IMG/VR virus record: IMGVR_UViG_3300032304_000587
Span: 1-21,574 of that record
Length of the DNA: 21,574 bases
Direction: 5' to 3' (one strand)
DNA from: a virus
Of this stretch, positions 1 to 21,574 are shown in pieces. Position numbers and translations under genes: made by a program. How positions within the stretch are numbered: position 1 is the first letter of the stretch; the number at the start of each line of letters is the position of its first letter. The notes under the pieces are model-generated. The model had not been told where the DNA came from and searched no databases. It was given only the letters and a program-made list of their open reading frames with translations.

Positions 1-156
1 ACCACAGGCGCACAAACTCAGACATTTACTCCAGGTGTATTTGGTTACAATGATGAAACAATTCCCACAACAGACATACAAATTAAAGTGGTCAATAGAA
101 GTGGAGCATCTGCGGCTATTACAGTAACAGTAAAATTATTACAATTGGAAGCATAA
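1..156 (+). CDS. C-terminal end of a virion-type protein (partial)
   Basis: Frame 1 is open from the first base to a TAA at 154-156, giving the last 51 residues of a protein whose start lies outside the window. The tail is rich in Thr, Val and Ile, with alternating hydrophobic residues typical of beta-structure (for example IQIKVVNRSGASAAITVTVK). The next gene starts one base after the stop, so the two are probably co-transcribed. The composition and the neighbouring tail-associated protease suggest a tail or baseplate component, but nothing in this fragment identifies a family. Confidence 0.7.
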   Translation, partial: TTGAQTQTFTPGVFGYNDETIPTTDIQIKVVNRSGASAAITVTVKLLQLEA

Positions 157-157
157 T

Positions 158-2815
158 ATGACAACACCTATTCCGCACTTAGGTAACCCTGACGACCAAA
201 GTCTAAAAGAATATATTGTTACATTAAAAGATTTTAAAGACTCCGATGGCTTCTACGAAGACATGGAATCAGTCGGGGGCAATTTATACATACCAGATAG
301 AATGGTAGAATGTATTAATCGCAGACCCATCAGTCGTAATACTCACTACATGCTGACCTACGATGAAGCGGCTCAGATTAAAAACGATCCAAGAGTATTC
401 ACAGTAGAATTAAATTATTCAGACTTGGGTATAGTTATTGGCTGTGATGGCTTTACACAAACCAGTGCCAACTTTGATAAACGAGTAGCCAGTGATTCCG
501 TTGACCTCAATTGGGGATTACTACGTTTAAACAGAAAGACTGATGTTGCCACTTGGGGTGTCAGCGGAACTGTTAATCAATCAGCGACCATTATCATGGA
601 TGCCAGCGGCAGGAACGTTGATGTAGTGGTCATGGATGACGGTGCCCCATATCCCACAACCTATGAATATGCGCAGAATCCCGATGGTACTGGTTATAGT
701 CGAATGGTCGAGTATAACTGGTATATACATAATCCTGTGGTAACTGGTGGCGCAGTAGGATCATACAGTTATCCAGGAACAAGGTTACAAGAGCACGGTG
801 CTCACACCTCTGGCAACTGTGCAGGCAACACACAAGGTTTTGCCAGAGATGCAAATATCTATAATATCACATTCTATGACAGCATTGACTATGTGCGCGA
901 GTTTCATAAAAATAAACCCGTTAACCCATTAACCGGAGTTAAGAATCCCACAGTTATGAATAACAGTTGGGGATATCGTTTAAACGGTATCAGCGAAGCC
1001 AGTATTAGTTCTGTTTTTTATCGTGGAGTTACATATACTCGTCCACCTACAGGATGGACCACAGCAGATTTAGATAATTTTAGAATTAGAACGGGTGCGG
1101 CACTGCCTACACAAAATGCAGGCACTGATGCAGATATGATCGAAGCCATGGCCGAAGGTGTGATTATTGTAGCCAGTGCTGGAAACAGTTACTGGTACGA
1201 GGATGTGCCAGGCGGCCCTGATTACGATAATTTCATGATTTACGGTGGCATAAGTTATTATATACATCGAGGCAGTAGTCCCGGAGCAGCCAATGGTGGC
1301 ACAGAAGGCACAAAAATTATATGTAGTGGTGCTATCGGACAACACGACGAAGCAACCGGTGCCAGTATCTATGCGTCAACTGGCGTTGAACAAGGCGACT
1401 ACAAAGCAGAGTTTAGTAATTACGGACCGCGAGTAGATGTGTTTGCACCTGGGTCAGGAATCCAAAGTATTTGGAACAGTGGTGCTGCCTTGTATGACGG
1501 AACTCCAGCAGTTGATTCCCGTGTGGCCGCATTGAGCGGTAATGATACTGTCAATAATAATTATAAAAAGTGTCCAGGAACTAGCATGAGCTGTCCTAAC
1601 ACTGTGGGAGTGCTTGCCTGTTATGCAGAAAAATATCCCCGCATGACGCAGGCTGATGCTCGTGCATTAATAAACGCAATTAGTACAGATACAGTATTAA
1701 GTACAAATGGTGGAACATTTGACGGCAAAGATGCTGGACATACTTATAATCCAAACAGTTGCAAAAAGATGATGTTCTTCCAAGGAACAAGACATCCAAG
1801 TCAAGAAGTGGGAGGTTACTACCCAACACCATTCCCCACAGTAAACAACTGGTATCGTCCCGCCAGCGGACAAGTATACCCAAGAAAGCCAACTCTTAAC
1901 AGTTATAATAAGGCCGCTACATTTGGTCTATCTGTGAACGACTCAACAGTGAGTACTGGTCAAACCGCAACAGTGACCTTGACCACTACTAATATTTCAA
2001 ACGGTACCGTAGTCCCATATATTATCACAGCTCGTCCTAATACTTCTGGAGGTGTTTTGACCACTACTGCCGTCGATGGTGTTTACTCAGCAAGTGCTGT
2101 GGTTACTGGAGTCACATTAAATACTAGACCAAACAGTGGTAACAGATTTACCACCACAGGCACTCCCAACGGTGTTAGTTCGACAATAACAAATAGTTTA
2201 CTTGGTCCAGGAGCACTGGCCAGTTCTACTCCAACTGTACCAGGTGCCCTGGGCTTTATAGGCGGTCAAGACGATGGCTACTGGGGTGTGCCTTTGCCGT
2301 TTCCTGTAACATTTATTGGGACCAATTACAGTACTTTGTATGTTGGTACTAACACCTACATAACTTTTACTGCTGGCTCTACAAATTATAGTCAGTTAAA
2401 TGCATCAAATCCTCCGTTTCCAAAAATAATGATTAGTTGTGCTGACAACAGTTGTCAACGAATTTATTATGGTGCAGAAGGCGTTGCACCTAACAGAACT
2501 TTTAGAGTTCGATGGGAGGGCACTGCTAGTACTTCTGGAACGCTAGGCTCACCTAACATGGTATACGAAGCAGTGTTTTATGAAAACACTCCCGCTCAAA
2601 TCGATGTGCATACTGGTGTAAATGCTCGATGGTCCACAACCACTTCAATATATCCGTTTACGTCTAATGATATAAGTGTTCCATTGACTGGATCTGTAAC
2701 AGTAAACAGTAACACAGCAACATTGCCGATAACTATAAACACAGCGTCATCTCTTTTGATGAATGTTAGATTGGATATGTTTCCTGCACCAAATATTGGC
2801 ATAACGGTAAACTAA
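158..2815 (+). CDS. Subtilisin-family (S8) serine protease with I9-like propeptide and beta-rich C-terminus
   Basis: A complete 885-residue peptidase of family S8. The catalytic triad is visible: Asp160 in VVVMDDG, His213 in HGAHTSG, and Ser476 in PGTSMSCP, with the oxyanion Asn343 in SAGNS. Residues about 18-88 resemble an I9 inhibitor/propeptide: it opens with EYIVTLKD and ends with the hallmark LTYDEAAQIKNDPRVFTVE, so autoproteolytic maturation is plausible. There is no N-terminal signal peptide, which argues against export and for packaging in the virion. After the protease (about 150-530) come an Ig-like segment (about 585-650) and a beta-rich segment (about 700-825) that loosely recalls nidogen-like domains. 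It starts one base after an upstream virion-type gene. A role in processing tail proteins or degrading host-surface protein is inference. No Shine-Dalgarno site is obvious, so translation may be coupled to the gene before it. Confidence 0.9.
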   Translation: MTTPIPHLGNPDDQSLKEYIVTLKDFKDSDGFYEDMESVGGNLYIPDRMVECINRRPISRNTHYMLTYDEAAQIKNDPRVFTVELNYSDLGIVIGCDGFTQTSANFDKRVASDSVDLNWGLLRLNRKTDVATWGVSGTVNQSATIIMDASGRNVDVVVMDDGAPYPTTYEYAQNPDGTGYSRMVEYNWYIHNPVVTGGAVGSYSYPGTRLQEHGAHTSGNCAGNTQGFARDANIYNITFYDSIDYVREFHKNKPVNPLTGVKNPTVMNNSWGYRLNGISEASISSVFYRGVTYTRPPTGWTTADLDNFRIRTGAALPTQNAGTDADMIEAMAEGVIIVASAGNSYWYEDVPGGPDYDNFMIYGGISYYIHRGSSPGAANGGTEGTKIICSGAIGQHDEATGASIYASTGVEQGDYKAEFSNYGPRVDVFAPGSGIQSIWNSGAALYDGTPAVDSRVAALSGNDTVNNNYKKCPGTSMSCPNTVGVLACYAEKYPRMTQADARALINAISTDTVLSTNGGTFDGKDAGHTYNPNSCKKMMFFQGTRHPSQEVGGYYPTPFPTVNNWYRPASGQVYPRKPTLNSYNKAATFGLSVNDSTVSTGQTATVTLTTTNISNGTVVPYIITARPNTSGGVLTTTAVDGVYSASAVVTGVTLNTRPNSGNRFTTTGTPNGVSSTITNSLLGPGALASSTPTVPGALGFIGGQDDGYWGVPLPFPVTFIGTNYSTLYVGTNTYITFTAGSTNYSQLNASNPPFPKIMISCADNSCQRIYYGAEGVAPNRTFRVRWEGTASTSGTLGSPNMVYEAVFYENTPAQIDVHTGVNARWSTTTSIYPFTSNDISVPLTGSVTVNSNTATLPITINTASSLLMNVRLDMFPAPNIGITVN

Positions 2816-2853: not shown

Positions 2854-3027
2854 ATGACTGAATCAAAAACTTATCTAGTTGAAGACCTATTTCATGACAT
2901 TCCGGGAGATCCGGATAATGTTATGTTTCAAATTCCTCCTGAAATCTGTGAAAAAATGGGATGGAAAGAAGGCGATAATATTCACATATCTGTAACTGAC
3001 GGTCGCATGATCATTTCTAAAACATGA
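2854..3027 (+). CDS. AbrB/MazE-like (swapped-hairpin) small protein
   Basis: A 57-residue gene. The segment [17 protein letters not shown] followed by [14 protein letters not shown] matches the SpoVT-AbrB/MazE swapped-hairpin pattern (a hydrophobic-x-IPPE strand, then GWKEGD, then a second hairpin). The N-terminal part, with DIPGDPDNV, is as I remember it in related small proteins of T4-like marine phages. The start is fixed because an in-frame TAA lies at 2848-2850 and no other ATG precedes the conserved N-terminus. There is no Shine-Dalgarno site upstream, consistent with a leaderless message. Its stop overlaps the start of the IF-1 gene (ATGA), so the two form one translation unit. It probably binds DNA as a dimer; its target is unknown. 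No toxin partner is present, so an antitoxin role is not supported. Confidence 0.8.
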
Positions 3028-3239
3028 GCAAAAGCGACTTGTTAGAAATGGAAGGCGCCATTTCTGAAGTATTACCTGGCAATATGTTTAGAGTAACTTT
3101 GGATAATGGACACGTTATTACTTGCTACACCAATGGCCGACTACGCCAAAACAAAATCAAAATAATCATGGGCGACAAAGTGCGTATTGAAATGAGCCCA
3201 TATGATTTATCCAAAGGTCGAATTACTTACCGACTTTGA
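3024..3239 (+). CDS. infA: Translation initiation factor IF-1
   Basis: A complete 71-residue S1/OB-fold protein, nearly the length of E. coli IF-1 (72 residues). Compared with the E. coli sequence from memory, a little over half of the positions are identical, including the strings MFRV, NGHV, GDKV and PYDLSKGRI. In bacteria IF-1 binds the A site of the 30S subunit and works with IF-2 and IF-3 in start-site selection. Here it overlaps the AbrB-like gene by four bases and shares its promoter. A second promoter begins immediately after its stop, so the pair forms a closed two-gene operon. The setting is clearly viral, so this is a host-derived gene kept by the phage. The invariant core residues look intact, so it is probably functional; a takeover role in translation is inference. 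Confidence 0.95.
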
Positions 3240-3240
3240 C

Positions 3241-3269
3241 TTGACTTTTAATTAAATTGACTGTATAAT
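3241..3269 (+). promoter_or_regulatory. Strong sigma70-type promoter
   Basis: TTGACT (3241-3246) and TATAAT (3264-3269) are 17 bases apart, placed directly after the IF-1 stop codon. The expected transcription start is about 3276-3277, which coincides with the first base of an 8-bp hairpin. Extra TTGACT/TTGAC copies occur just upstream (from 3236) and inside the spacer (3258-3263). Confidence 0.85.
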
Positions 3270-3276
3270 ATTCCAT

Positions 3277-3300
3277 ATACACAATAATAATGTTGTGTAT
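3277..3300 (+). promoter_or_regulatory. Perfect 8-bp inverted repeat at the 5' end of the leader
   Basis: ATACACAA (3277-3284) and TTGTGTAT (3293-3300) form a perfect inverted repeat around an 8-base loop. It begins at the predicted transcription start, so it could be a 5'-end hairpin that protects the mRNA, or a dyad operator for a dimeric regulator such as the AbrB-like protein encoded just upstream. Confidence 0.6.
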
Positions 3301-3323
3301 AGGTGGCCAAGAGAAGGCCTATA
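3298..3323 (+). promoter_or_regulatory. Second leader hairpin next to the ribosome-binding site
   Basis: TATA (3298-3301) and GGCC (3305-3308) can pair with GGCC (3316-3319) and TATA (3320-3323) around an AAGAGAA loop, with a three-base bulge. A variant pairs TATAGG with CCTATA. The structure ends at the Shine-Dalgarno sequence AAAGGA (3323-3328) and shares bases 3298-3300 with the first hairpin, so the two could be mutually exclusive. No computed folding energy supports this. Confidence 0.4.
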
Positions 3324-3334
3324 AAGGAAATTAT

Positions 3335-4480
3335 ATGACAGAAAAGACTCACGCTCAAGTTATCAACGAGCAATACCTCAAATCAGACAGTCACTTTGTA
3401 ACCTTACAAGAACGCCTGTCCGAATCATTAAAAACTGCGCCACTGTTTGTTGGACTACTCACTGGTGTAGTGGACGAATTCAAACGTCGACATAAAAATT
3501 GGACTACCTTTACAGACTTGCTATTGTGTAAGGCAATTATGGTTCCCATGGACAAGATCCTAATTGATACCACAATGCAACGTAGTCTTAATCTGCGACA
3601 TGTATTAAACATCCTACAGCACTTCCGTAGCACAATGACCATGGCTATTCAAGTGTATGAAGATTCTAACAAGCCTGGTTACTATATTGCATGGGACGGG
3701 CAACACACTGCTATTGCACTGTACATCATCCTTACCAAAGTGTTTGGTGAACAAACTGCCAAGACAATGATTCCAGTTGTTGTGTACAACGTAAAGCACA
3801 AATTAGAAATTCGCCGAAACTTTATTTTGTTAAACGGTGATGCCAAAGAAGAACTCGACTTCATTGACAAGTACAAGCAGATGGTTTTTGGTTCAAAGGT
3901 TGACGGTGCAGATGACACTGAATGGACCGACACAGCCAAAAAGAATGACTACCTAGCGGCCGCTGGCCTGTTTGCCACACACAGCAAGTTCGGCGATGAA
4001 GACCAACCAGGTGCATTCAGTTTGCTGGCTGATACACTTATGAGTAAATCGCTTAAGACACGTAAAGATCCAGAAGTCACTCGTATGTTTGCCACATACT
4101 GGACTTATCTAAATCAGGAACGTGCTGTAGAACCCAAGGAAGCCAGACAGTTGTACGAATACTTTAACCTGTGCTTTGAACAAGGTATCACAGTGGACGA
4201 TGCATACTTGCTGGAGTTTGCGGCATTTACAAAAGAAAACTTTGGCGGTGACTTTGGCCCCAATGGTCCGTTCTGGGATAAAGTTAAAATGTCATATGAA
4301 TCGTGGTATGCCAAGGCCAATCCTGAATCGTTTGCAGAGTTTGGCTTGAAAGGATTTACATCAGAAATGCGTACAGGTATTCCGTTTTTGATTGCACAGG
4401 TTAAAAAGAGTACTAAGTTGAAAACCCCTAGTTACTCTGCTAACAATGGCTTTACTGTTTCTGCAAAGGACTTGTGGTAA
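3335..4480 (+). CDS. ParB/Srx-like protein with a DGQHT motif
   Basis: A 381-residue protein. I chose ATG 3335 because AAAGGA lies at a good distance upstream; an in-frame ATG at 3290 lies inside the leader hairpin region and lacks a Shine-Dalgarno site. Residues about 70-150 resemble the ParB/sulfiredoxin-like fold: VPMDKILID, an MQR motif (81-83), then IAWDGQHTAIAL (118-129), recalling the DGQHR and DGHHR motifs of ParB-N, DndB and related proteins, followed by IPVVVYNV. The remaining 230 residues are helical in character and unrecognised. Members of this broad fold can be NTPases, nucleases or DNA-modification partners. It has its own promoter with a structured leader and is followed after one base by an HNH nuclease, which suggests a joint role on DNA. 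The specific activity is unknown. Confidence 0.65.
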   Translation: MTEKTHAQVINEQYLKSDSHFVTLQERLSESLKTAPLFVGLLTGVVDEFKRRHKNWTTFTDLLLCKAIMVPMDKILIDTTMQRSLNLRHVLNILQHFRSTMTMAIQVYEDSNKPGYYIAWDGQHTAIALYIILTKVFGEQTAKTMIPVVVYNVKHKLEIRRNFILLNGDAKEELDFIDKYKQMVFGSKVDGADDTEWTDTAKKNDYLAAAGLFATHSKFGDEDQPGAFSLLADTLMSKSLKTRKDPEVTRMFATYWTYLNQERAVEPKEARQLYEYFNLCFEQGITVDDAYLLEFAAFTKENFGGDFGPNGPFWDKVKMSYESWYAKANPESFAEFGLKGFTSEMRTGIPFLIAQVKKSTKLKTPSYSANNGFTVSAKDLW

Positions 4481-4481
4481 C

Positions 4482-4937
4482 ATGTCTACATTACGTGATC
4501 CAAACAAGGATAAACTCAAAGGTCAGAGTATCCTCAAGGAACAGTATCGCTTACAATGTAAGTGTAAATTAGAAGATTGCGATAATGATATTACAATCTT
4601 CGATGGTCCAGGCAGTGATGGTTACTGCCGTGAACATCAACTACAACTTACAGAGTATGGCGGTATGGGCAAAGCAGAACGCCCTCATACATTTTATCGT
4701 GGATGGGTATGCGTATGTTGTAAATACGATCCTCGCGAAGATCCTCAGTTTGATGATATCGAGGATCCGTTCCATAAGTTACGTTGTATGCGTGGTGTGA
4801 TGCACGGAGACCACCTAGAGCGTAAAAGCGATGGTGGTGCAGACACAGCAGAAAATATTCAGACACTGTGTTGTCGGTGTCATATGATTAAGACTTACAA
4901 AGAAAAAGATTATCTTAAAGGAAACAAAGAGGAATAA
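4482..4937 (+). CDS. HNH endonuclease
   Basis: A 151-residue protein with a C-terminal HNH (beta-beta-alpha metal) domain: GDHLERKSDGG (109-119), with D110-H111 as the first catalytic His pair, Asn125 in AENIQ, and His134 in LCCRCHMIKT. Zinc ligands are likely C77/C80 (CVCC) with C130/C133. The N-terminal half holds a second Cys/His-rich segment (CKCKLEDCDND, then YCREH), possibly another zinc site. ATG 4482 follows the previous stop by one base; an upstream in-frame ATG at 4446 lies inside the preceding gene and is not favoured. It could be a free-standing homing-type nuclease, but its tight fit between genes and its pairing with a ParB-like protein also allow a role in host-DNA breakdown or packaging. 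Confidence 0.85.
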   Translation: MSTLRDPNKDKLKGQSILKEQYRLQCKCKLEDCDNDITIFDGPGSDGYCREHQLQLTEYGGMGKAERPHTFYRGWVCVCCKYDPREDPQFDDIEDPFHKLRCMRGVMHGDHLERKSDGGADTAENIQTLCCRCHMIKTYKEKDYLKGNKEE

Positions 4938-4939
4938 CT

Positions 4940-5185
4940 ATGGAAGTAATTAATATTAACGACAAAAGCGAACAACGTCGAAAAGCAAATATGCTGGATG
5001 TTATCGATGAAGTGCGTAAGCGTATTGAAGACGGCTCCATGGAAGAATTTGTCATGTCTAGTATTGATAAAGAAGGCGAAGTAGTCATACATGCCAGCGT
5101 GAAAGATATGATTGGTGGTGTGGGGTTATTTGAAATTGGTAAAAATATTCTTATCCAACAACAGACTATGATCGACTATGAGTGA
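4940..5185 (+). CDS. Small phage protein of unknown function
   Basis: An 81-residue gene with a good ribosome-binding site (AGAGGA, 4928-4933) and ATG two bases after the HNH gene's stop. It has a charged helical N-terminus (RRKANMLDVIDEVRKRIED) and a compact C-terminal part ending in GGVGLFEIGKNILIQQQ. The layout recalls short conserved phage proteins with a GLFELGK-like ending, but I cannot name a family. Its last eight bases overlap the next gene, so the two are probably translated together. Confidence 0.75.
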   Translation: MEVININDKSEQRRKANMLDVIDEVRKRIEDGSMEEFVMSSIDKEGEVVIHASVKDMIGGVGLFEIGKNILIQQQTMIDYE

Positions 5186-5891
5186 ACTTACAGCATTAAA
5201 AGATAGAGTATGGCCTGCTGACAATGTGTTGGCTATGGCCTGTGCTATTTTTAGAACTAAGGGATTTACCAGCGTTAGTTCGGTGGTCAGTTCAGATTTG
5301 GACTCCGACGGTAGATGGAATAGCAAAGAACACCTGTGTTATCAAATGGTTCCAGACTTGGATAAAGAATATAAAGTTCTTATCCGAGTCACACAGGAAG
5401 ATATAGACAGTGCTAATGCTATTGTACAATACTATCGAAGATTAACATTTGGTGTTATTGCTGACAATCTCAGCGACTATATGCAACGAGTATTTTCCAG
5501 CACTCAGAAACCAGAAGTCAATTTCAAAGACTTTGGCATTTTGGCCAGTGTGCCCAGTGTGTATTTTAAAGAGATGGAAAAGAAACGCATTATCAGCGAA
5601 TCCAAATCTGCCGTACAAGAATATATCGGCACAGTGGGTGGCAATGTTTTATTGAACATTCGATATATCAATACCAGATTTGTTGACAAACTAAACTGCT
5701 ATGCACATGACGCAATAACTGATACGGGGCATTTGGTAAACTTTTTGAATAAATCGCAGTTGGGCAAGACCGGTGACAAGCAGACAATAAAAGCCAAAGT
5801 CAAAAATCACGGTGTAAACTTCATAACCAAATCAATCGAAACACAATTAAATTATGTCAAACCGGTTGACAATGAACTGGTTTGGCAGTAA
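5178..5891 (+). CDS. Phage protein of unknown function (237 residues)
   Basis: The gene starts inside the end of the previous one (8-base overlap) and is the last gene of the ParB-like/HNH operon. The protein is soluble, with no membrane segment and no motif that I recognise. A central part (about 75-130) is rich in aromatic and charged residues. The C-terminal part (IKAKVKNHGVNFITKSIETQLNYVK) is basic and beta-like, which would fit nucleic-acid contact, but this is only an impression. Its stop codon TAA (5889-5891) forms the first bases of the -10 box of the ligase promoter. Confidence 0.75.
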   Translation: MSELTALKDRVWPADNVLAMACAIFRTKGFTSVSSVVSSDLDSDGRWNSKEHLCYQMVPDLDKEYKVLIRVTQEDIDSANAIVQYYRRLTFGVIADNLSDYMQRVFSSTQKPEVNFKDFGILASVPSVYFKEMEKKRIISESKSAVQEYIGTVGGNVLLNIRYINTRFVDKLNCYAHDAITDTGHLVNFLNKSQLGKTGDKQTIKAKVKNHGVNFITKSIETQLNYVKPVDNELVWQ

Positions 5892-5894
5892 AAT
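5866..5894 (+). promoter_or_regulatory. Sigma70-type promoter for the ligase operon
   Basis: TTGACA (5866-5871) and TAAAAT (5889-5894) are 17 bases apart. The -35 box lies inside the upstream gene, and the -10 box begins with that gene's TAA stop codon. The expected start is near 5901, leaving a leader of about 24 bases before the GTG at 5925. Confidence 0.7.
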
Positions 5895-5913
5895 ACTAGT
5901 AAGTTAAAACTTT

Positions 5914-5919
5914 TAGGAG
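5914..5919 (+). promoter_or_regulatory. Ribosome-binding site for the GTG-started ligase
   Basis: TAGGAG lies five bases before the GTG at 5925 and supports this non-ATG start. No in-frame ATG of similar quality is nearby, and the first Met downstream is at residue 47, after a conserved-looking N-terminal segment. Confidence 0.75.
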
Positions 5920-5924
5920 ACATC

Positions 5925-7247
5925 GTGAGCGACCCTTGCCAATACGTTATCAGTACTTTAGAAGATCATCCAAGTAGATTAAACAAAGAAGCAATTATCC
6001 TTGCACAGGCAGAAGCAGGAAATAAAGAATTTTTCGAAGGATGTCGTCTAGCATTAGACTCAATGATTACATTTGGGTTAAAACAAATACCGGAGAAAAC
6101 AGATGAAGATGGCCCTGGCCTACCTTGGGATAGTTTTACTCTCGCTCTTACTGGCTTTGTTACTCGCAATGTCACCGGTAATACAGCGAGGGATATGATC
6201 CAAGCAATGATGAAGAGTGCTACCAAGGCACAGTGGAATGGTTGGTATCGACGCATCCTTATCAAAGACCTACGCTGTGGTGTCAGCGAAAAAACAATTA
6301 ATAAAATGGTAGAAGAAAAGTATGCTGACTATGCTATACCTGTGTTTAGTTGCCAACTTGCTCATGATAGTGCTAACCACGAAAGTAAAGTCACTGGAAA
6401 GAAACTTATCGAAGTTAAGCTCGACGGCGTCCGTGTTATCACTATTGTGCGTACAGATGGTCGCGTTGATATGTTTAGTCGTAACGGTAAGGAACTTGCA
6501 AATTTCCCTCACATTGTAGAACAAATCAGTGCAGTAGCAAAACAAAATCCACCGCCATGCGATTTGATTTTGGATGGCGAGATTATGAGTAGCAGTTTTC
6601 AAGACTTAATGACCCAGGTGCATCGTAAGAGTGATGTCAAAGCCAACGATGCTGTACTGCATTTGTTTGATACTATTCCATTGGAAAACTTTGAACAGGG
6701 TGCGTGGAGCAAGAGTCAATCGGATCGCAGTGACATGGTCTACTATTGGCACAAACAACATAAAGATGCACTGCCCAATGTGGCAGTTGTAGGACATGAG
6801 CTTGTGGATTTGGATACCGCAGAAGGTCAACAGCGTTACAAAGAAATTAATGCCAAGGCTATCGAAGGTGGGTATGAGGGCATTATGCTTAAAAATCCAG
6901 AAGCAGGTTACGAATGTAAACGCAGTGTGGCTTGGTTAAAATTGAAACCGTTTATCGAAGTTAGTCTTACTGTGGTTGCCACAGAAGAAGGTACTGGTAA
7001 GAATGTGGGCAAACTGGGTGCGCTGGTCTGCGAAGGTGTTGACGATGGTAAGGACATTCGAGTTAATGTTGGCAGTGGACTCACAGACGAGCAACGTGAT
7101 GGCTTTTGGAAGTTTAAGGATGACTGTGTTGGCATGATAGCAGAAGTACGTGCTGACGCTATTACACAGAATCAAGACGGCACATATAGTTTGCGCTTTC
7201 CAAGATTCTTGCGCTTTAGAGGTCTTGTAAAAGGTGAAAAGATTTAA
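5925..7247 (+). CDS. ATP-dependent DNA ligase
   Basis: A 440-residue ligase of the nucleotidyltransferase superfamily, near the size of T4 gp30. The motifs are present in order: motif I EVKLDGVR with adenylated Lys165; motif III FSRNGKE (184-190); LILDGEI (214-220); motif IIIa LHLFDT (245-250); motif IV EGIMLKNP (318-325); and motif V WLKLKP (337-342). A C-terminal OB fold follows (about 345-440, ending SLRFPRFLRFRG). The N-terminal 150 residues contain a helical domain with LIKDLRCGVSEKTIN, typical of the DNA-binding domain of phage ligases. It seals nicks during phage replication and repair. It starts with GTG behind a strong Shine-Dalgarno site and its own promoter, and it heads a long operon of small genes. 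Confidence 0.95.
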   Translation: MSDPCQYVISTLEDHPSRLNKEAIILAQAEAGNKEFFEGCRLALDSMITFGLKQIPEKTDEDGPGLPWDSFTLALTGFVTRNVTGNTARDMIQAMMKSATKAQWNGWYRRILIKDLRCGVSEKTINKMVEEKYADYAIPVFSCQLAHDSANHESKVTGKKLIEVKLDGVRVITIVRTDGRVDMFSRNGKELANFPHIVEQISAVAKQNPPPCDLILDGEIMSSSFQDLMTQVHRKSDVKANDAVLHLFDTIPLENFEQGAWSKSQSDRSDMVYYWHKQHKDALPNVAVVGHELVDLDTAEGQQRYKEINAKAIEGGYEGIMLKNPEAGYECKRSVAWLKLKPFIEVSLTVVATEEGTGKNVGKLGALVCEGVDDGKDIRVNVGSGLTDEQRDGFWKFKDDCVGMIAEVRADAITQNQDGTYSLRFPRFLRFRGLVKGEKI

Positions 7248-7259
7248 AGGTAACATATA

Positions 7260-7484
7260 ATGTATAAAACTATCTACACAGAAGTCGAAGTGGATGTTGA
7301 GTTAAGTGATTTTGAAACGGATGACTTAATTGAAGAATTAGAAAGCCGAGGTGCAGGAGTTGAACCCGAGTTCGGTGATGGCAAGGAAATGCTTAGGGCA
7401 ATTTACGAAAAACGTAGACTGGGTCAAGATTATCAAACGGAGTTAGATCAACTTATTTGGTTGGGATTGGGCAAAATAATATGA
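7260..7484 (+). CDS. Small acidic phage protein of unknown function
   Basis: A 74-residue gene 12 bases after the ligase stop, with AAAGG (7246-7250) as the ribosome-binding site. The protein is strongly acidic. The segment VEVDVELSDFETDDLIEELESRG looks like a conserved short motif followed by a helix with IYEKRRLGQDYQTELDQLIWLGLGKII. Similar small proteins, as I recall them, occur in environmental phage genomes, but no function is known to me. It shares ATGA with the next gene. Confidence 0.75.
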   Translation: MYKTIYTEVEVDVELSDFETDDLIEELESRGAGVEPEFGDGKEMLRAIYEKRRLGQDYQTELDQLIWLGLGKII

Positions 7485-7837
7485 GTGGTTGGAATGCAAT
7501 TCAAAGAATAAAACGTATTGAACAATTGATCGACGAACTTGGGTTTAAGTTCAGTAAAAGCAAACATACTGATTGGAGTGAAGATCATGGTTCTTTAAGT
7601 CTTGTGCCAAAAGATCAGGATGCACTGCCAATTTATAGCCGTGATGCAGAACTGTTTGTGGGCAGTCTTGAAAGACTAGAGGATTGGTTGGCTGGCGTTA
7701 AATGGGCTCGAGATTACGACATGATGTTGCAACTAAGCGATGACAAGAAACGCAGTGGTGCAGAACAAAAACAACGTAATAGGAATCTCATGAAGTCTAT
7801 CAAAGAAGGCAATACGATCACAGGAACTGTAGAATGA
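7481..7837 (+). CDS. Phage protein of unknown function (118 residues)
   Basis: ATG 7481 overlaps the previous stop by four bases. An earlier in-frame ATG (7457) lies inside the previous gene and is not favoured. The protein has a short helical start (IQRIKRIEQLIDELGFKF), a middle region with YSRDAELFVGSLERLEDWLAGVKWAR, and a basic, polar end (DDKKRSGAEQKQRNRNLMKS). The LEDWLAGVKWARDYD segment looks like a conserved helix. I recognise no catalytic motif. It is part of the ligase operon and shares ATGA with the next gene. Confidence 0.75.
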   Translation: MSGWNAIQRIKRIEQLIDELGFKFSKSKHTDWSEDHGSLSLVPKDQDALPIYSRDAELFVGSLERLEDWLAGVKWARDYDMMLQLSDDKKRSGAEQKQRNRNLMKSIKEGNTITGTVE

Positions 7838-8052
7838 CATATTCTTGGATTTTGATCATCGCCATGCATAGCCCTGCAGGAGATTTTATGAGCAAGGATA
7901 TTGTGAAATTTAATAGCCAAAAAGACTGTGAAGCAGTGCGTGTACAACTATCAAATTTAGACCATCCAATGCGTGTTAAACACAAAGGTTTGTGTGTGAC
8001 TCGAGATCATTGGGAAGGCAAAAAGCAAATGCCAGGAGTAGCGTATGACTAA
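7834..8052 (+). CDS. Small phage protein with a hydrophobic N-terminus
   Basis: A 72-residue gene that overlaps the previous one by four bases. It opens with a short hydrophobic run (YSWILIIAM) followed by SPAGDF, then two Cys residues (C32 and C54) that could form a disulfide, and ends with VTRDHWEGKKQMPGVAYD. The combination of a hydrophobic start, paired Cys and DHW motif resembles small proteins I recall from marine phages. Export or membrane attachment is possible, but the hydrophobic run is shorter than a usual signal peptide core. Function unknown. Confidence 0.7.
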   Translation: MTYSWILIIAMHSPAGDFMSKDIVKFNSQKDCEAVRVQLSNLDHPMRVKHKGLCVTRDHWEGKKQMPGVAYD

Positions 8053-8299
8053 AGCAAAACATAAACCGTATCAATGGATTGACGGTGAAACTGCGGATCG
8101 TATCACCAGCATGAATCTAAAAGACTATCGTGCTAATCTCAAAAGCGAATTGGCCAAGTGGAAAAAGAATCCCAAGACAGAAGATAATCCGGACGGGTAT
8201 TGGTTGCACCCCGAAGACGTAAGCGGTAACATACGTAGAATTGAAGCATTGAATTTGATTATCAACGACTTCGTTGAAACATCGGACGAGATAAAATGA
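8045..8299 (+). CDS. Small phage protein of unknown function (84 residues)
   Basis: The start lies eight bases inside the previous gene, and the stop shares ATGA with the next one. The protein is charged and mostly helical (LKDYRANLKSELAKWKK, then VSGNIRRIEALNLIINDFVE), with a short Pro/Asp-rich loop between (NPKTEDNPDGYWLHPED). No motif is recognised. Its position argues for a real, co-translated gene of the ligase operon. Confidence 0.7.
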   Translation: MTKAKHKPYQWIDGETADRITSMNLKDYRANLKSELAKWKKNPKTEDNPDGYWLHPEDVSGNIRRIEALNLIINDFVETSDEIK

Positions 8300-10045: not shown

Positions 10046-10906
10046 ATGAAAATCAAACTTGTATCAGACCTCCATTTAGAGTTTTCGGACATCATGATCC
10101 CAAATGATCAAAACTATGATGTTTTGATTCTTGCTGGCGATATTATGATTGCCACGGACTTGCATGACCATCCAGAACCAAACAACACTGCGGACCAGGC
10201 CGCAATTGCCAATTCAACTGGGTTGGGACGAAGACAATTGGCCGCACAACGATTCCGTGACTTTTTGAAGCGATGCAGTTTTCAGTTTCCGCATGTTATC
10301 TACGTTGCCGGCAACCATGAGTTTTACAACGGCAAGTGGACACAAAGTCTCACCACTTTGAGCAACGAGTGTGCCAAGTTTCCCAATGTGTATTTTTTGG
10401 AGGCAGGCACAAAGAAAATTGATGACGTGACTTTTATCGGCGGGACACTTTGGACTGACATGAACAAAGGTGATCCGCTGACACTTCACGCTGTACGTGA
10501 CATGATGAACGACTTCCGTGTTATCAAAAAGGATCTGGAAGGATACACTAACCTCAAGCCACACGACACAGTCTTGCGACATCGTCATATGCTGGGCTAT
10601 ATTAAAACTGTGGTAGCAGAACGCCCTGACGAAAAGTTTGTTGTTGTAGGGCATCATAGCCCAAGTTTCCAAAGTGCTCATGAAATGTATAAGAATGACA
10701 CTTTGATGAATGGCGCATACCACAGCGACTTGAGTGAGTTTATTTTGGACCGGCCGCAGATCAAACTGTGGGTACATGGGCACACACATCACCCGTTTGA
10801 TTACATGATCGGTGAAACAAGAGTTGTGTGTAACCCTCGTGGTTACGAAAATGATGGCTACAGTGAGAACAGTGGCTGGAACCCTAATATTGTATTGGAA
10901 GTATAA
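10046..10906 (+). CDS. Calcineurin-like metallophosphoesterase
   Basis: A 286-residue enzyme with all the metallophosphoesterase motifs: DLH (Asp8, His10), GD (31-32), GNHE (89-92), GHH (202-204) and GHTH (245-248), which together bind two metal ions. ATG 10046 is preferred because family members usually begin a few residues before the DxH strand (here MKIKLVSDLHLEF). A TTG at 10010 in the same frame would add 12 residues that coincide with the promoter. The inserted stretch at residues 40-65 is polar. The substrate cannot be read from the sequence: phage members of this superfamily include protein phosphatases and nucleotide phosphodiesterases. It heads the downstream operon, with the next gene overlapping by one base. 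Confidence 0.9.
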   Translation: MKIKLVSDLHLEFSDIMIPNDQNYDVLILAGDIMIATDLHDHPEPNNTADQAAIANSTGLGRRQLAAQRFRDFLKRCSFQFPHVIYVAGNHEFYNGKWTQSLTTLSNECAKFPNVYFLEAGTKKIDDVTFIGGTLWTDMNKGDPLTLHAVRDMMNDFRVIKKDLEGYTNLKPHDTVLRHRHMLGYIKTVVAERPDEKFVVVGHHSPSFQSAHEMYKNDTLMNGAYHSDLSEFILDRPQIKLWVHGHTHHPFDYMIGETRVVCNPRGYENDGYSENSGWNPNIVLEV

Positions 10907-11346
10907 TGAAAATTGGACTTAGTTATAGCAGATGTGTGCGAGATATTGTCGACGGCAAGGTCGATATTGAGGATGTATTAGTGCTGATCACTCGTACAAA
11001 TTTTGATCCGCACGATGATGAACAGTGGCAGGGTATTTGGGTTGGCTATGGCGGTGGTACAGAAAATGCTTACTCGAATGGATTCTTTAGTCACAGCAAT
11101 CCAGAATGGGCCGGCTATGACAACGAAGCATTGTTCCGTTTGGTCAGTACTGAACTATGGGATCAAGGTAAATTGCACCAACCACGTAAGTTCGGCGCAC
11201 ACCCAAGTCGACGTCCAGAAATTTGGTTGGAGGCAGTACTGCCTAGCAGTGAACTAGAACGCAATCCTGCCGCCAAATCCGCTTGGGATAAATTCCAAAC
11301 TATCGCAGGCCTTACTAATGTAGAGTTGGATGACAAGTACAAATGA
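10906..11346 (+). CDS. Phage protein of unknown function (146 residues)
   Basis: ATG 10906 uses the last A of the phosphoesterase stop (TAATG). The protein starts MKIGLSYSRCVRDIVDGKVDIEDVLVLITRT, a segment I associate with uncharacterised environmental phage proteins, then has DPHDDEQWQGIWVGYGGG and the conserved-looking ELWDQGKLHQPRKFGAHP. It is a soluble alpha/beta-type protein without a known catalytic motif. The N-terminal Cys and the paired His residues are candidate functional residues but are not diagnostic. Confidence 0.75.
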   Translation: MKIGLSYSRCVRDIVDGKVDIEDVLVLITRTNFDPHDDEQWQGIWVGYGGGTENAYSNGFFSHSNPEWAGYDNEALFRLVSTELWDQGKLHQPRKFGAHPSRRPEIWLEAVLPSSELERNPAAKSAWDKFQTIAGLTNVELDDKYK

Positions 11347-14915: not shown

Positions 14916-16124
14916 ATGGCAACTAAATCAGCAACCAAAACTCGTGTAACCAAAAAGCAAGTTACTGCACATCGTACCCGTGCAATCAAAGACCACAGCC
15001 CAGTTTGGGACGGTTGCGAAACTTGGGATGACGATACATTCCATCGCCATTTCAAACGTTCAATGGATTACTATCGTTTGGAAAGCGATATCAAAACTTA
15101 CAAGCCCACAGTAATTAAATGGATGACTGACGTTGGCTGTGCCAAATCAGACATTGTGGCTTTTAAGAAAGTCAAAGACAATCGTATTAATACCACAATG
15201 GGTGCTGTGGCCGCTTGTTTAAATCGCGGCATGACTCCGCAACGTCCTGGGTTTAATAGTGGCCGTGATACTGCCGCTTGGTTGCGAGCAGAGATTGTCA
15301 AAGTTCTTGCTGAAGGTGCAGACGACATTGATCCAGAAACACTGGCCGCAGAAAAAGAAGCCGCTAAAAAGGATGTGTATGTTCCTAGCATCCAAGAAAG
15401 ATTGCGTGAAGTTGCATTGGGCATGACTGAAGAACTGGAAAATGCCTACGAAAACTTTCAAACTGATCCAGAAAACTTTGATCCAAAGGCTTTTAAAGTA
15501 CTCAACTTGTTAAAGAGCCAGCAGGCCAAGGCCGCACATGCTCGTATCATTCGTGACTTCTATGCTCGTGATTTGGCAGAGCTCGAAGAACTGGCCAGCG
15601 GCAAAGGCTGTGAGCAGTTGCGTGAAGGCTACAGTCATCGTAGCAAAAAACAGATCAAGGCATTTATTGCTTTCTTAACTGAAATACAAACTGCCTGCAC
15701 CATGCTGATGCAAGAAGCCAAGGTCAATCGTGCGCCACGTGCTAAGAAAGCAGTGAGTGTGGATAAACTTGTTGCTAAACTCAAGTATAAGAAAACTGAC
15801 GAGCCGTTGAAGTTGGTCAGTATCAATCCTGCTGACATTATTGGTAGCAAGGAGTTGTGGGTTTACAACACCAAGAGTCGTAAGTTGGGCAAGTATGTGG
15901 CCAACGAGTACATGGACTTGGGTGTTAAAGGCACTACAATTACCGGCTTTAACGAAAGTCTCAGCGTAATGAAGACTGTGCGTAAACCAGAGGAAAAGAT
16001 GAAAGAGTTCAAAGCCGCTGGTAAGGTACAGTTACGTAAGTTCTTAGACGAGATTAATGCCACAGAGGCACGTATGAACGGACGCATCAACGAAGAAATC
16101 ATTCTTCTCAAAGCAACGTCTTAA
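14916..16124 (+). CDS. Lysine-rich phage protein of unknown function (402 residues)
   Basis: A 402-residue protein with its own consensus promoter and strong ribosome-binding site, so it is probably abundant. The N-terminus is basic and disordered-looking (KSATKTRVTKKQVTAHRTR). A long helical middle follows (about 155-270). The C-terminal part (about 285-400) contains KLKYKKTDEPLKLVSINP, then a strand-rich ELWVYNTKSRKLGKYV, GVKGTTI, RKPEEK and a closing RINEEIILLK. I recall this C-terminal pattern from uncharacterised proteins of T4-like marine phages. A DNA-binding or nucleoid-associated role fits the charge but is inference. Its stop overlaps, tail to tail, the stop of the minus-strand fibre gene, with no obvious terminator between. 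Confidence 0.8.
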   Translation: MATKSATKTRVTKKQVTAHRTRAIKDHSPVWDGCETWDDDTFHRHFKRSMDYYRLESDIKTYKPTVIKWMTDVGCAKSDIVAFKKVKDNRINTTMGAVAACLNRGMTPQRPGFNSGRDTAAWLRAEIVKVLAEGADDIDPETLAAEKEAAKKDVYVPSIQERLREVALGMTEELENAYENFQTDPENFDPKAFKVLNLLKSQQAKAAHARIIRDFYARDLAELEELASGKGCEQLREGYSHRSKKQIKAFIAFLTEIQTACTMLMQEAKVNRAPRAKKAVSVDKLVAKLKYKKTDEPLKLVSINPADIIGSKELWVYNTKSRKLGKYVANEYMDLGVKGTTITGFNESLSVMKTVRKPEEKMKEFKAAGKVQLRKFLDEINATEARMNGRINEEIILLKATS

Positions 16125-18169
16125 GTAGCGTTAGCGTTAATTGTTAGAGCACCAGTAGTTGCTATCACAGCGCCACTGGTGCTTACTGTTCTAATCTGTA
16201 CTTGGAATGTTTCGGCGGCTTCTGCTCCGCCCAATGTAGCGGCTGTAACTGTAAAGTTACCTGATGTTCCGTTACTGACTGCAAACGATCCACTAGCGGC
16301 TGTGAAGTCTGCGTTAGTAGTTGTTCCGTTAAGTATAGTCCAGAAATAAGTTCCATTTGGGAATCCAGTAGCACTGGCTGTAATAGTTGTTGATGCCCCT
16401 TCGTTAAATGATGTTGGACTGCCGCTGGCTGTGACTGTTGTGGATGTATCATTAACTGTTACACTTGAACTGGTTGCTAATACTGTGCCACTGACACTAC
16501 CTGTTCTTACACTGACTGTGAATGTTTGAGCACCTTCTGTAGCATAATCATTTACAGTAGTCACAGAGAATGTACCTGTGCCGTTATCCTGTGCGCCGCC
16601 TCCAGCAATAGTAAACGATCCATTCTCCGCACTGAAGTCTGCGGCCGCTGTTGAGCCGTGATTGATACTCCAGAAATAAGTTCCGTTTGGTCCAAGATTG
16701 GCCGCAGTAAATGATAGCGATGCTCCTTCGTTTACAGAACCTGCGGCTGGTGTTACTGTAGGTGTTAACGATACATCACTAATTGAAACACTGGCACTTG
16801 TTACAATAACTGTTCCGGAAACACTGCCACTTCGAACTTGTACTTGGAATGTTTCTGTACCCTCCGTGCTTAGGTCTTTAATTGGTGTTACTGAGAACGA
16901 GCCAGTACCATTATCAATTCCTCCAGTGCTACCACTCACAACGAATGATCCGCTAACAGCACTGAAGTCTGCGTTAACTGATGTGCTGTTTAACACAGTC
17001 CAATAGTATGTTCCGTCTACACCAACGTTGGCCACTGTAAACGATCCTGCACTGCCCTCGCCTATTGATGCTGGTGTAACTGTAAATGCTGGAGTTAACG
17101 ACACATCGGTTATAGTGATTTCATCGCTAGCGCCGATGATTGGTCCTGTTATAGATGTTTGTCTCACAGTCACAGAAAAAGTCTCTGTACCTTCTGTGAA
17201 TAAATCTTTAGTAGGTGTTAAAGTAAAAGATCCACTGTTGCCGGTTATGGCAAAACTACCAGATAAGGATGCTGAAGTAAAATCTGATGTTGTAATTGCT
17301 GTACTGCCAGATGCTTGATCTATAGTATAGTAATATGTGCCGTTTGCAGTATTAGTTCCAGCAACGGTAAATGTAATTACACTGCCTTCTGAGCCGGTTA
17401 ACGTAGAAGGAGTCACTGTGGCAGATACAACTATCACTGTTGGTGGTGTAACAAAGTTATCAGTATACGGAGATTGTGCGATGTATGTTACAAGATTGTT
17501 TGTTACTGCTATTGCATTTGCTGAACTGTCAGTGGTAAATGTTCCACTAGATTTCACATTTAACAATAATGCGGCAGTAGCGCCTTGACTTGTTCTTGTG
17601 AACGGAACTCTGCTAGGTGTAAAGTCAGTAGTATATACTGCACTTTTAGAAATCCTCAAATTAGTTAAGTAACCCAGTGCCGGGTATGTACTATTGCCTG
17701 GGGCCCATTGTCCCACACAGGGGTTATATGTTGTGTTAGTAGCATAGTTATTAGTACAACTTGCAGGCGTATAGGATACACCGTTAACAAACAATCTAGC
17801 ACTGCTACTATTACGAACTAAGGCAATGTGATACCAATTGTTAATTGACAGTGTTGCACCAAATGCCCGAATGGCTCCACCAACAGTGGCAAATACAATT
17901 TGTCCCGAACGCTGATATATCCAAAGGTAATTGTTGCTACCAAACCATTGAGCATATAAAACTTGAATTCCGCTCGTACCCCAATTTATATCAAGAATAG
18001 GGCGCCACCAAAACTCTATAGTAAAGTTACCTGTACCGTAGGTTAAACTAGTTCCTGAAAAAGTTAAGTATTGACTACCACCGACAAAAGAAAAACTTCC
18101 ACCTGGTTGTATTCCGGCTGTTCCGTATGATTGTATACTGGCATTACCTAATGTAGATAATAATGGCAT
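16121..18169 (-). CDS. Tail-fibre/adhesin-like protein: LamG domain plus four Calx-beta-like repeats
   Basis: A 682-residue protein on the minus strand. Residues about 30-205 form a LamG/concanavalin-like domain: GNFTIEFWWRP, WYHIALVRN, ARLFVNGV and LTNLRISKSAVY are its usual strands. From about 247 to 680 there are four repeats of about 105 residues (247-356, 359-466, 469-574, 577-680), each with an SxxEG start, NGTYxW(T/S)I, DF(S/T)A, GSF, and a TEGTETFxVxVR end, the Calx-beta pattern. Such repeats often bind calcium. The LamG domain suggests glycan binding on the host surface. No signal peptide is seen, fitting a virion protein. It follows the other minus-strand fibre by nine bases, with AAGG as ribosome-binding site seven bases from the ATG. 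The absence of a recognisable trimeric tip leaves open a head- or tail-decorating role. Confidence 0.8.
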   Translation of the reverse strand: MPLLSTLGNASIQSYGTAGIQPGGSFSFVGGSQYLTFSGTSLTYGTGNFTIEFWWRPILDINWGTSGIQVLYAQWFGSNNYLWIYQRSGQIVFATVGGAIRAFGATLSINNWYHIALVRNSSSARLFVNGVSYTPASCTNNYATNTTYNPCVGQWAPGNSTYPALGYLTNLRISKSAVYTTDFTPSRVPFTRTSQGATAALLLNVKSSGTFTTDSSANAIAVTNNLVTYIAQSPYTDNFVTPPTVIVVSATVTPSTLTGSEGSVITFTVAGTNTANGTYYYTIDQASGSTAITTSDFTSASLSGSFAITGNSGSFTLTPTKDLFTEGTETFSVTVRQTSITGPIIGASDEITITDVSLTPAFTVTPASIGEGSAGSFTVANVGVDGTYYWTVLNSTSVNADFSAVSGSFVVSGSTGGIDNGTGSFSVTPIKDLSTEGTETFQVQVRSGSVSGTVIVTSASVSISDVSLTPTVTPAAGSVNEGASLSFTAANLGPNGTYFWSINHGSTAAADFSAENGSFTIAGGGAQDNGTGTFSVTTVNDYATEGAQTFTVSVRTGSVSGTVLATSSSVTVNDTSTTVTASGSPTSFNEGASTTITASATGFPNGTYFWTILNGTTTNADFTAASGSFAVSNGTSGNFTVTAATLGGAEAAETFQVQIRTVSTSGAVIATTGALTINANAT
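16130..17431 (-). repeat. Four tandem Calx-beta-type coding repeats
   Basis: Four copies of about 310-330 bases lie at about 17102-17431, 16772-17095, 16448-16765 and 16130-16441 within the minus-strand adhesin gene. They share protein motifs such as NGTYFW and TEGTETF; DNA identity is partial, so they are diverged rather than recent copies. Repeat number may vary between relatives by recombination. Confidence 0.7.
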
Positions 18170-20161: not shown

Positions 20162-20169
20162 TATAAATA
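20162..20169 (+). promoter_or_regulatory. T4-late-type promoter (TATAAATA) for the plus-strand fibre
   Basis: TATAAATA at 20162-20169 is an exact match to the T4 late promoter core and is followed by CT. There is no TTGACA at the right distance, which argues against a sigma70 promoter. The start codon is only seven bases downstream, so the transcript would have almost no leader, and no Shine-Dalgarno site is visible. Confidence 0.6.
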
Positions 20170-20176
20170 CTACACT

Positions 20177-21574
20177 ATGAGCACAAACATCGATAAAATT
20201 CTCCAAGATTTAGGTGACGCACTGAAATCTTCTGCCGCTGGCGGCGCATTAAGCAAAGGTATTCGCGATACTGCTACCCGTGAGCAGTTGATTGTTACTG
20301 ATAAGGGTGTACAAATTGGCGTATTAAGTGCTGACAGAATCAGCGGAAACATCAACGTAGAAGGCACCCTGGGTGCTGGAAAGATTGTGGCCGCAGGTAC
20401 TAGCGAATTTGCCAACTTAAAAGTCAACGGCAAATTAGAAGCAGATACACTGTTGGTCAAGAATGTTATTTCAGAACAAAGTCTGGAAACATTTACCAAA
20501 TCAATTGCGTTTGCATCTAGACAACTCAGCGATCTAGACGGAAAAGGCCTACAATGGGACAGTCCTGATGTAAGTTATCAGTTTGTTTTCAAGGCCAACC
20601 CTAGAAGAATTTTCAGCACAGAAACTATTGATTTGTACAAAGGTGCAAAGTATCAAATAGAAGGCATCGATGTACTTGAAAAAACAAGATTAGGAAATGC
20701 TGTTCGCGACAGTAATTTACGCACAGTGGGTCCATTGGAAAGTCTACGTGTCACAGGTGAAGTTAATCTAGGCGACACAGTGTTTGTAAATGCACTGGGA
20801 AGATTGGGTGTCAATACTCAAGAACCAAATGCTGTGATCAGTGCTGTGGATAATAATGTGGAAGTAATGCTGGGTGTCAGCGATGAAACTTCTGCGTTCG
20901 TGGGCACATGGGGCAATAACAGTTTCAGTATTGTTACCGACAATACAAAACGTATCACTGTATCTGGAAACATCACTGAGTTTGGCAATGCTAAAAGCAA
21001 AGGTGCTGTGGTAAAAGTACATGGCAGATTAGAAGTTGACAGTATTGTATCCGATATTAGAATTGAAAAAACCAGTCCTATAGAATTTCTTGCCAGCAAA
21101 GATAATTCAATTTTTGGCAAGGGTATGATTTGGAAGGGCGAAGGCGGCACACGCCAATTCGTAATGATGCCAAATCCAGATAGAATTTATTCCACAGAAA
21201 GCATCGACCTTGCAGTTAACAAAGAATACTGGATCGACGGCCGAAACGTACTAAGCAGAACTGACTTAGGTACTAGTGTGGTTAATTCTAGTCTTACTAG
21301 ATTGGGCACACTGACATCGTTAGATGTAAATGGTACTGTGAATCTTTCCGACAGCATCACTGTCGAAGACAGCGTGGTTACAATTAACAATTCAGTAACT
21401 ATCAAAGACGGTGCTGGCTCATTGAGATTATCCAGCAGTGGCATAACAGCAGACAAGTTCAGCATAGGTGATGACTTTGCTGTGGAAACAGCGGGCAGTA
21501 TACGTGTTGGTAACAAAGACAACACAACTAGAAATGTCAACGTCTACGGACAACTCAGCGTGAACATTACTAAC
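20177..21574 (+). CDS. Tail-fibre-like structural protein (partial, N-terminal 466 residues)
   Basis: The frame stays open from ATG 20177 to the end of the window, so the C-terminus is missing. The N-terminal 110 residues (STNIDKILQDLGDALKSSA, then GVQIGVLSADRISGNINVEG) look like an attachment region leading into beta-repeat shaft motifs such as NINVEGTLGAGKIV, LRVTGEVNLGD and LDVNGTVNLSDSI. Residues 122-201 and 314-393 are two copies of the same segment of about 80 residues, sharing RIFSTETIDL/RIYSTESIDL and G-x-VNL. LGRLGVNTQEPNAVISAVDN (208-226) matches the short motif common in fibre proteins of marine myoviruses. It probably works with the minus-strand adhesins as part of the tail-fibre apparatus. 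The start is fixed by the late-type promoter directly upstream. Confidence 0.85.
   Translation, partial: MSTNIDKILQDLGDALKSSAAGGALSKGIRDTATREQLIVTDKGVQIGVLSADRISGNINVEGTLGAGKIVAAGTSEFANLKVNGKLEADTLLVKNVISEQSLETFTKSIAFASRQLSDLDGKGLQWDSPDVSYQFVFKANPRRIFSTETIDLYKGAKYQIEGIDVLEKTRLGNAVRDSNLRTVGPLESLRVTGEVNLGDTVFVNALGRLGVNTQEPNAVISAVDNNVEVMLGVSDETSAFVGTWGNNSFSIVTDNTKRITVSGNITEFGNAKSKGAVVKVHGRLEVDSIVSDIRIEKTSPIEFLASKDNSIFGKGMIWKGEGGTRQFVMMPNPDRIYSTESIDLAVNKEYWIDGRNVLSRTDLGTSVVNSSLTRLGTLTSLDVNGTVNLSDSITVEDSVVTINNSVTIKDGAGSLRLSSSGITADKFSIGDDFAVETAGSIRVGNKDNTTRNVNVYGQLSVNITN
20540..21355 (+). repeat. Internal duplication inside the plus-strand fibre gene
   Basis: Segment 20540-20779 (residues 122-201) and segment 21116-21355 (residues 314-393) encode two alignable copies with the same order of motifs and equal length, 576 bases apart. 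They are clearly diverged at the DNA level, so this is an old in-gene duplication. Confidence 0.65.

Follow-up and report, generated by a model that had tools for sequence, protein, structure and literature searches.

The window, a stretch of viral DNA of 21,574 nucleotides (positions 1 to 21,574 of IMG/VR record IMGVR_UViG_3300032304_000587), encodes a subtilase with a complete set of catalytic residues and an N-terminal prodomain that is predicted to have the I9 fold. The protease gene is linked to a fibre gene that ends in a conserved tip, and in the phage family to which it belongs the prodomain is, in nearly all pairs compared, more conserved than the catalytic domain. We read the protein as the zymogen of a subtilase that a T4-like phage carries on its fibre or baseplate and that would process itself, stay capped until assembly or attachment, and then cut host surface proteins. 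We put the probability of this reading at roughly one-half. The features are listed in Table 1.

Table 1. Features of the fibre-protease region (window coordinates unless a locus is named)
Feature	Position	Strand	Basis
Fibre gene, C-terminal 51 aa and TAA stop (154-156); tip ends ...LLQLEA	1..156	+	
S8 subtilase ORF, ATG start, 885 aa, phrog_9158	158..2815	+	ORF, Pfam, PHROGs
N-terminal leader, 16 residues (MTTPIPHLGNPDDQSL), preceding the I9 core	158..205	+	
I9-type prodomain core, residues 17-85, beta-alpha-beta-beta-alpha-beta	206..412	+	Structure model, Foldseek
Signature ISRNTHYMLT, residues 58-67, covering strand 3 and the hairpin between strands 2 and 3	329..358	+	
Predicted autoprocessing site Ile92/Val93	431..436	+	Prediction from spacing and hydrophobic preference
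Linker, residues 93-115, poorly conserved, from prodomain to catalytic domain	434..502	+	
Subtilisin catalytic domain, residues ~116-540	503..1777	+	
Catalytic Asp160	635..637	+	
Catalytic His213	794..796	+	
Oxyanion Asn343	1184..1186	+	
Catalytic Ser476 (GTSMSCP)	1583..1585	+	
C-terminal region, residues 580-885, mostly beta	1895..2812	+	Prediction, low confidence
Proteins 1-5 nt after the tip	L040 6344-8599; L042 6344-8641; L043 6347-8173; L044 6349-8319; L045 7333-9663; L047 3921-6224		

Catalytic Domain and C-terminal Region

Pfam finds a single family in the protein, PF00082 (Peptidase_S8), at 66.7 bits (E = 2.7e-18) and well above the curated cut-off of 21.8 bits. The protein is also a member of phrog_9158 (286 bits, E = 1.1e-84), a family of unknown function in PHROGs, and this match spans residues 13-671. 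The PDB matches of the subtilase family profile are proteinase K, aqualysin, and subtilisins. The Asp/His/Ser triad and the oxyanion Asn occur in the correct order (Asp-160, His-213, Asn-343, and Ser-476), in agreement with the first-pass annotation, which had proposed a subtilase with all four residues. They are retained in 59 of 61 aligned relatives; one of the other two is truncated by the end of its contig, and one has Glu replacing Asp. Because of this retention and the S8 matches, the enzyme of the window is very probably active. No signal peptide is evident when the sequence is inspected by eye, as had been noted earlier.

The C-terminal region contains a DDGYW domain (residues ~700-840), which is found again in very large ORFs that related phages encode and which, in other phage subtilases, lies within the catalytic domain. 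In four of these (L028, L029, L030, and L032) it is inserted after the oxyanion Asn and ahead of the catalytic Ser, and we regard it as a mobile insert domain. A full-length AlphaFold model, built with 18 sequences, is poor (pLDDT 46, pTM 0.39), so that it does not make the prodomain visible in the active site, and it was kept out of the fold search.

Fold and Predicted Processing of the Prodomain

Structure prediction of the N-terminal domain, the check that had been proposed for an I9 propeptide, bears out the fold. The model, built with 53 natural sequences, has a mean pLDDT of 70.7, and its strands (residues 17-23, 51-55, 61-66, and 80-85) and helices (residues 26-37 and 68-75) follow each other in the I9 order. 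A Foldseek search with this domain returns the prosegments of subtilisin BPN'/E (1spb_P, 1scj_B, and 3cnq_P) together with 3whi as the best PDB matches, with a probability of 1.00 for the first four matches and an E value of 0.02. The TM score to the isolated prosegments is 0.68-0.69 by target length.

Proof of an I9 domain by sequence alone failed. The match to PF05922 (I9) scores 13.8 bits (E of about 0.1) against a cut-off of 21.2, and a profile-profile comparison of the prodomain with an I9 set by hhalign covers no more than 22 columns, in the region of helix 2 and strand 4. Because the PF05922 score lies below the cut-off, we file the prodomain as I9-like by fold and not as a member of the Pfam I9 family. 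The earlier view that the first 90 residues resemble an I9 propeptide thus holds for the fold, but the core comprises residues ~17-85 and is preceded by a leader of 16 residues, which is present in close relatives and missing from more distant ones. Within the signature that covers the hairpin between strands 2 and 3, Ser-59, Arg-60, Thr-62, and Tyr-64 are invariant among 53 sequences.

In the BPN' prosegment, 15 residues lead from the Asp of the D-P-x-V motif to Tyr-77, which is its last residue. Counting 15 residues in this way in the window protein leads to Ile-92, and 78% of 58 relatives have a hydrophobic residue at this position. On the basis of the equal spacing and the hydrophobic preference, the bond between Ile-92 and Val-93 is the predicted site of self-cleavage. 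The segment NDPRVFTVE, which the first-pass annotation took for the end of the propeptide, instead runs from helix 2 into strand 4. In several relatives, ~200-300 aa are inserted slightly beyond the linker and before the catalytic Asp. The S8 domain follows the I9-like prodomain, and no prodomain without a protease was found among about 110 ORFs, save for ORFs cut by a contig end and one weak match.

The Upstream Fibre Gene and Its Tip

The ATG of the protease lies 1 nt after the TAA stop codon of the fibre gene. The fibre gene is whole in a sister contig, L006 (5840-7999, 719 aa), which is 84% identical to the window, 270 kb long, and T4-like by its gp23; the tip of this fibre is encoded at 7613-7996. 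The protease had been described as lying beside tail genes, which is correct for the fibre gene, present in the window as bases 1-156, but the other tail and structural genes of the window start at 16.1 kb, 13 kb from the protease.

The fibre tip, phrog_15343, consists of the C-terminal ~125 aa and is roughly 45-60% identical across phages, in fibres that range from 143 to 1795 aa in length. Upstream DNA of at least 400 nt is readable for 73 distinct ORFs that carry the prodomain, and in 65 of these a tip ORF lies directly upstream. The gap from stop to ATG is exactly 1 nt in 42 relatives, and nearly all others fall between -4 and +3 nt. Most of the loci counted come from a set of 80 that was gathered by prodomain similarity, so the neighbouring gene lay outside the selection criteria. 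PF07880, the T4 gp9/10 baseplate domain, starts several of the partner fibres, with scores above the cut-off in L098, L018, L021, L123, and S-CREM1; one partner fibre has collagen repeats and one Mtd_N. In plain reading, the sequences suggest a fibre that is anchored to the baseplate, continues as a shaft whose length varies, and finishes in the tip, with the protease gene next in order. No convincing match was found between the tip and sequences of solved structures, and Pfam gave no match for one tip that was scanned alone.

The pairing of prodomain and tip is not obligatory, because the SRNT signature is kept in six prodomain sequences with no tip detected upstream (L033, L114, L115, L117, L153, and L134/L135) and a further prodomain in L137 has no upstream tip of its own. 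L137 carries a tandem pair of prodomain-bearing subtilases (3178-8178) behind a single tip fibre, and the prodomain in question belongs to the second of them.

The tip is also found in front of other proteins. In other cyanophages it is followed, at equal or near-equal spacing, by proteins of ~610-930 aa without a subtilase domain; in S-CRES1 it is followed by a small ORF, and in S-CAM1 (L040) by a divergent subtilase-like protein in which Glu replaces the catalytic Asp and which is classed as a tail fibre (phrog_15006). In S-H9-1 and ACG-2014i, one tip precedes a subtilase and another precedes a different protein. A tip specific for subtilases was therefore rejected. With such varied proteins behind it, the tip looks like a general connector whose partners can be swapped. 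It is conserved to its final residues even where the next gene encodes a non-protease. The non-subtilase family has no Pfam domain, starts like MAVTKTEYLVNGGNTGWS, and ends like KGIAFCARTT.

Two further observations concern these loci. Just downstream of the first pair, L012 (11781-13397), L013 (4646-6262), and L015 (4432-6027) encode a second, different subtilase of ~530-540 aa behind another fibre-like ORF. Three contigs of one metagenome-assembled genome, Rhodobacteraceae bacterium Water_Bin34 (L053, L054, and L055), each carry a tip fibre and a subtilase; they are probably phage contigs binned with their host, and they hint at a host group.

Conservation of the Prodomain

In secreted bacterial subtilases the prodomain usually evolves faster than the enzyme. 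A control set of 20 cellular I9 subtilases, almost all of them members of a single bacterial family, agrees with this: the propeptide is less conserved than the catalytic domain in every pair below 90% catalytic identity. The phage family shows the reverse, which the first-pass annotation had not foreseen. Of 2016 pairs, 95% show higher conservation in the prodomain than in the catalytic domain; the loci in these pairs were partly picked by prodomain similarity. Where the catalytic domains are 35-40% identical, prodomain identity averages 59%. The isolates found with the whole protein, when compared with the window, are 45-70% identical in the prodomain and 31-44% in the catalytic domain. Some closer pairs, such as S-MbCM7 and ACG-2014i, are exceptions without an excess in the prodomain. 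A milder form of the excess is found in related phage subtilases that lack a tip upstream.

For a prodomain to be conserved beyond its own enzyme is unusual, and it is measurable. Because of this inversion, the simplest explanation is probably that the prodomain has a second partner or is permanently retained in the particle. The fibre tip is not the sole cause, because the signature is kept in the six sequences without a tip. The idea that the SRNT signature serves solely to bind the fibre tip is weakened by these sequences and by the tandem second copy. A possible, if doubtful, form of retention is that the prodomain is a permanent adaptor: after self-cleavage it would stay in the virion and hold the protease on the fibre or the baseplate, and its receptor-triggered release would be the activation step. 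If so, a classical zymogen prodomain would have been turned into a structural part of a phage.

Virion Annotation of Relatives

The location in the virion, originally a guess, gains indirect support from the synteny with the fibre gene and from one relative that is labelled as a virion protein. This relative, S-SCSM1_228 (1411 aa), carries the tag "(virion protein)" in its annotation and is a full-length member of phrog_9158, with a match over residues 23-759. Mass spectrometry of S-SCSM1 names ORF213 and ORF214 as detected in that region (PMC9602691). Since ORF213 and ORF214 are tagged and the structural genes 209, 211, and 215 are not, the tag marks detection by mass spectrometry. In S-SCSM1, the virion-protein label is also carried by the tip fibre (231) and by the product of the gene that follows it (232). 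S-SCSM1_228 itself is 23% identical to the window protein in the N-domain and 31% in the catalytic domain, lacks the SRNT signature, and has no tip-bearing fibre detected directly upstream.

Deposited annotations describe cyanophage relatives as "subtilisin-like serine protease" adjoining "baseplate wedge subunit and tail pin." A search of the open literature found no paper that studies these annotated proteases and none on a virion subtilase of phages.

Other Genes of the Window and the Sister Contig

Directly downstream of the protease lie an ORF similar to MazE/AbrB and a gene for IF-1, a bacterial translation initiation factor, and further on are genes for an HNH protein, a DNA ligase, and a phosphoesterase. 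The IF-1 gene (3024-3239, + strand) encodes 71 aa (PF01176, 82.9 bits) and is kept in L006 at 10865-11080 (phrog_30201). The MazE/AbrB-like ORF (2854-3027, + strand, 57 aa) scores 22.0 bits with PF04014, just under the cut-off, and overlaps the start of the IF-1 gene. In Sf-FR1, AbrB-type and Phd-type genes are situated near the fibre-subtilase pair. In L006 the protease lies amid DNA-metabolism genes.

On the minus strand, at 16121-18169, a protein of 682 aa with LamG, Calx-beta, and Ig-type domains is encoded beside a minor-tail-like ORF; it is likely an adhesin. The T4 late-promoter sequence TATAAATA occurs at 20162-20169 on the + strand and ends 7 nt before the ATG, at 20177, of a predicted virion structural gene; chance alone would give one match in the window. 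No copy of this promoter was found near the fibre-protease pair in the window, and none in L006. The host photosynthesis gene psbA had no match in the sister contigs, which are possibly incomplete; gp23 is present in the near sister.

Discussion

Because the pairing of fibre and protease recurs across many aquatic phages, the protein is probably a virion-borne enzyme that is switched on at assembly or attachment. In such a scheme the subtilase, having no signal peptide, would be synthesised in the cytoplasm and co-translated with a baseplate-anchored fibre, on which it is probably mounted. The I9 prodomain (residues 17-85) would fold the enzyme and cap its active site, and the enzyme itself would cut the prodomain off at about Ile-92/Val-93. 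In the finished particle the protease, probably with the prodomain still bound, would sit at the conserved fibre tip; we infer both this location in the virion and the physical docking for the phage of the window. On contact with a cell the prodomain would be lost or degraded, and the enzyme would cut surface or envelope proteins, its presumed substrates, at the site and presumably at the time of attachment. The timed activation suggested by the first-pass annotation fits the anatomy of the protein. Against the scheme speak the SRNT prodomains without a tip, the tip in front of non-proteases, the poor full-length model, and the sub-threshold I9 scores.

An inhibitory prodomain would also suit an enzyme that shares a compartment with its substrates, and the tight one-gene coupling to the fibre might point to a morphogenetic protease, which would act in assembly, trim the adjacent fibre or another tail protein, and not be needed at attachment. 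Detection of the S-SCSM1 relative in virions would be compatible with a protease of this kind left in the particle. However, the tip is conserved to its last residues also before non-protease genes and is thus unlike a sacrificial end that is cleaved off, and we consider a purely morphogenetic role unlikely. It is still less probable that the protein works inside the cell late in infection, as a zymogen that is activated at lysis, degrades host proteins or debris, and shares only an operon with the fibre. The lack of an evident signal peptide and the copy amid DNA-metabolism genes in L006 agree with a role in release, but the 1-nt coupling to the fibre recurs in many different gene neighbourhoods, and one relative, in S-SCSM1, is labelled a virion protein.

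The S-CAM1 partner, with its Glu for the catalytic Asp and its filing as a tail fibre, raises the question of whether the protein serves in the tail as a structural or receptor-binding component, with a subtilase fold kept from an ancestor but without its enzymatic activity, and the C-terminal DDGYW domain common to very large ORFs could be read in the same way. Loss of activity is nevertheless very improbable for the window protein, as Asp, His, Asn, and Ser are all kept in the relatives apart from the contig-end truncation and the one substitution.

Phage tails are known to carry enzymes that cut polysaccharides and enzymes that cut the cell wall. If the preferred reading of a fibre-mounted zymogen is true, a self-inhibited protease of a broad class, encoded next to a fibre tip in many T4-like aquatic phages, would add the digestion of a protein layer to this repertoire. 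A zymogen linked to a fibre also offers a test of how a virion avoids self-digestion before it meets a cell.

Comparison with Known Systems

The window protein shares the catalytic residues and the prodomain topology of subtilisin BPN'/E and its I9 prosegments (MEROPS S8 / I9; PDB 1spb, 1scj, 3cnq, and 3whi), as well as the spacing from D-P-x-V to the cut site, which is a predicted site in the window protein. In contrast to these subtilisins, it has no evident signal peptide, a fibre gene 1 nt upstream, and a long C-terminal extension, and conservation is higher in its prodomain than in the enzyme, whereas the 20 cellular I9 subtilases show the opposite. The N-terminal domain of T4 gp9/gp10-type baseplate fibre connectors (PF07880) is common to several partner fibres, which differ from these connectors in ending in the tip of ~125 aa (phrog_15343). 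S-SCSM1_228 belongs to phrog_9158 like the window protein and differs from it in the divergent N-domain, the missing signature, and the lack of a detected upstream tip fibre. The gene order is shared with the phrog_9158 proteins of T4-like cyanophages (T4-GC 292; S-H38, Sf-FR1, S-WAM2, and S-H9-1), which are encoded behind a tip-bearing fibre or tail-pin gene; the window member, whose catalytic domain has 31-44% identity to theirs, carries in addition the leader and the DDGYW domain.
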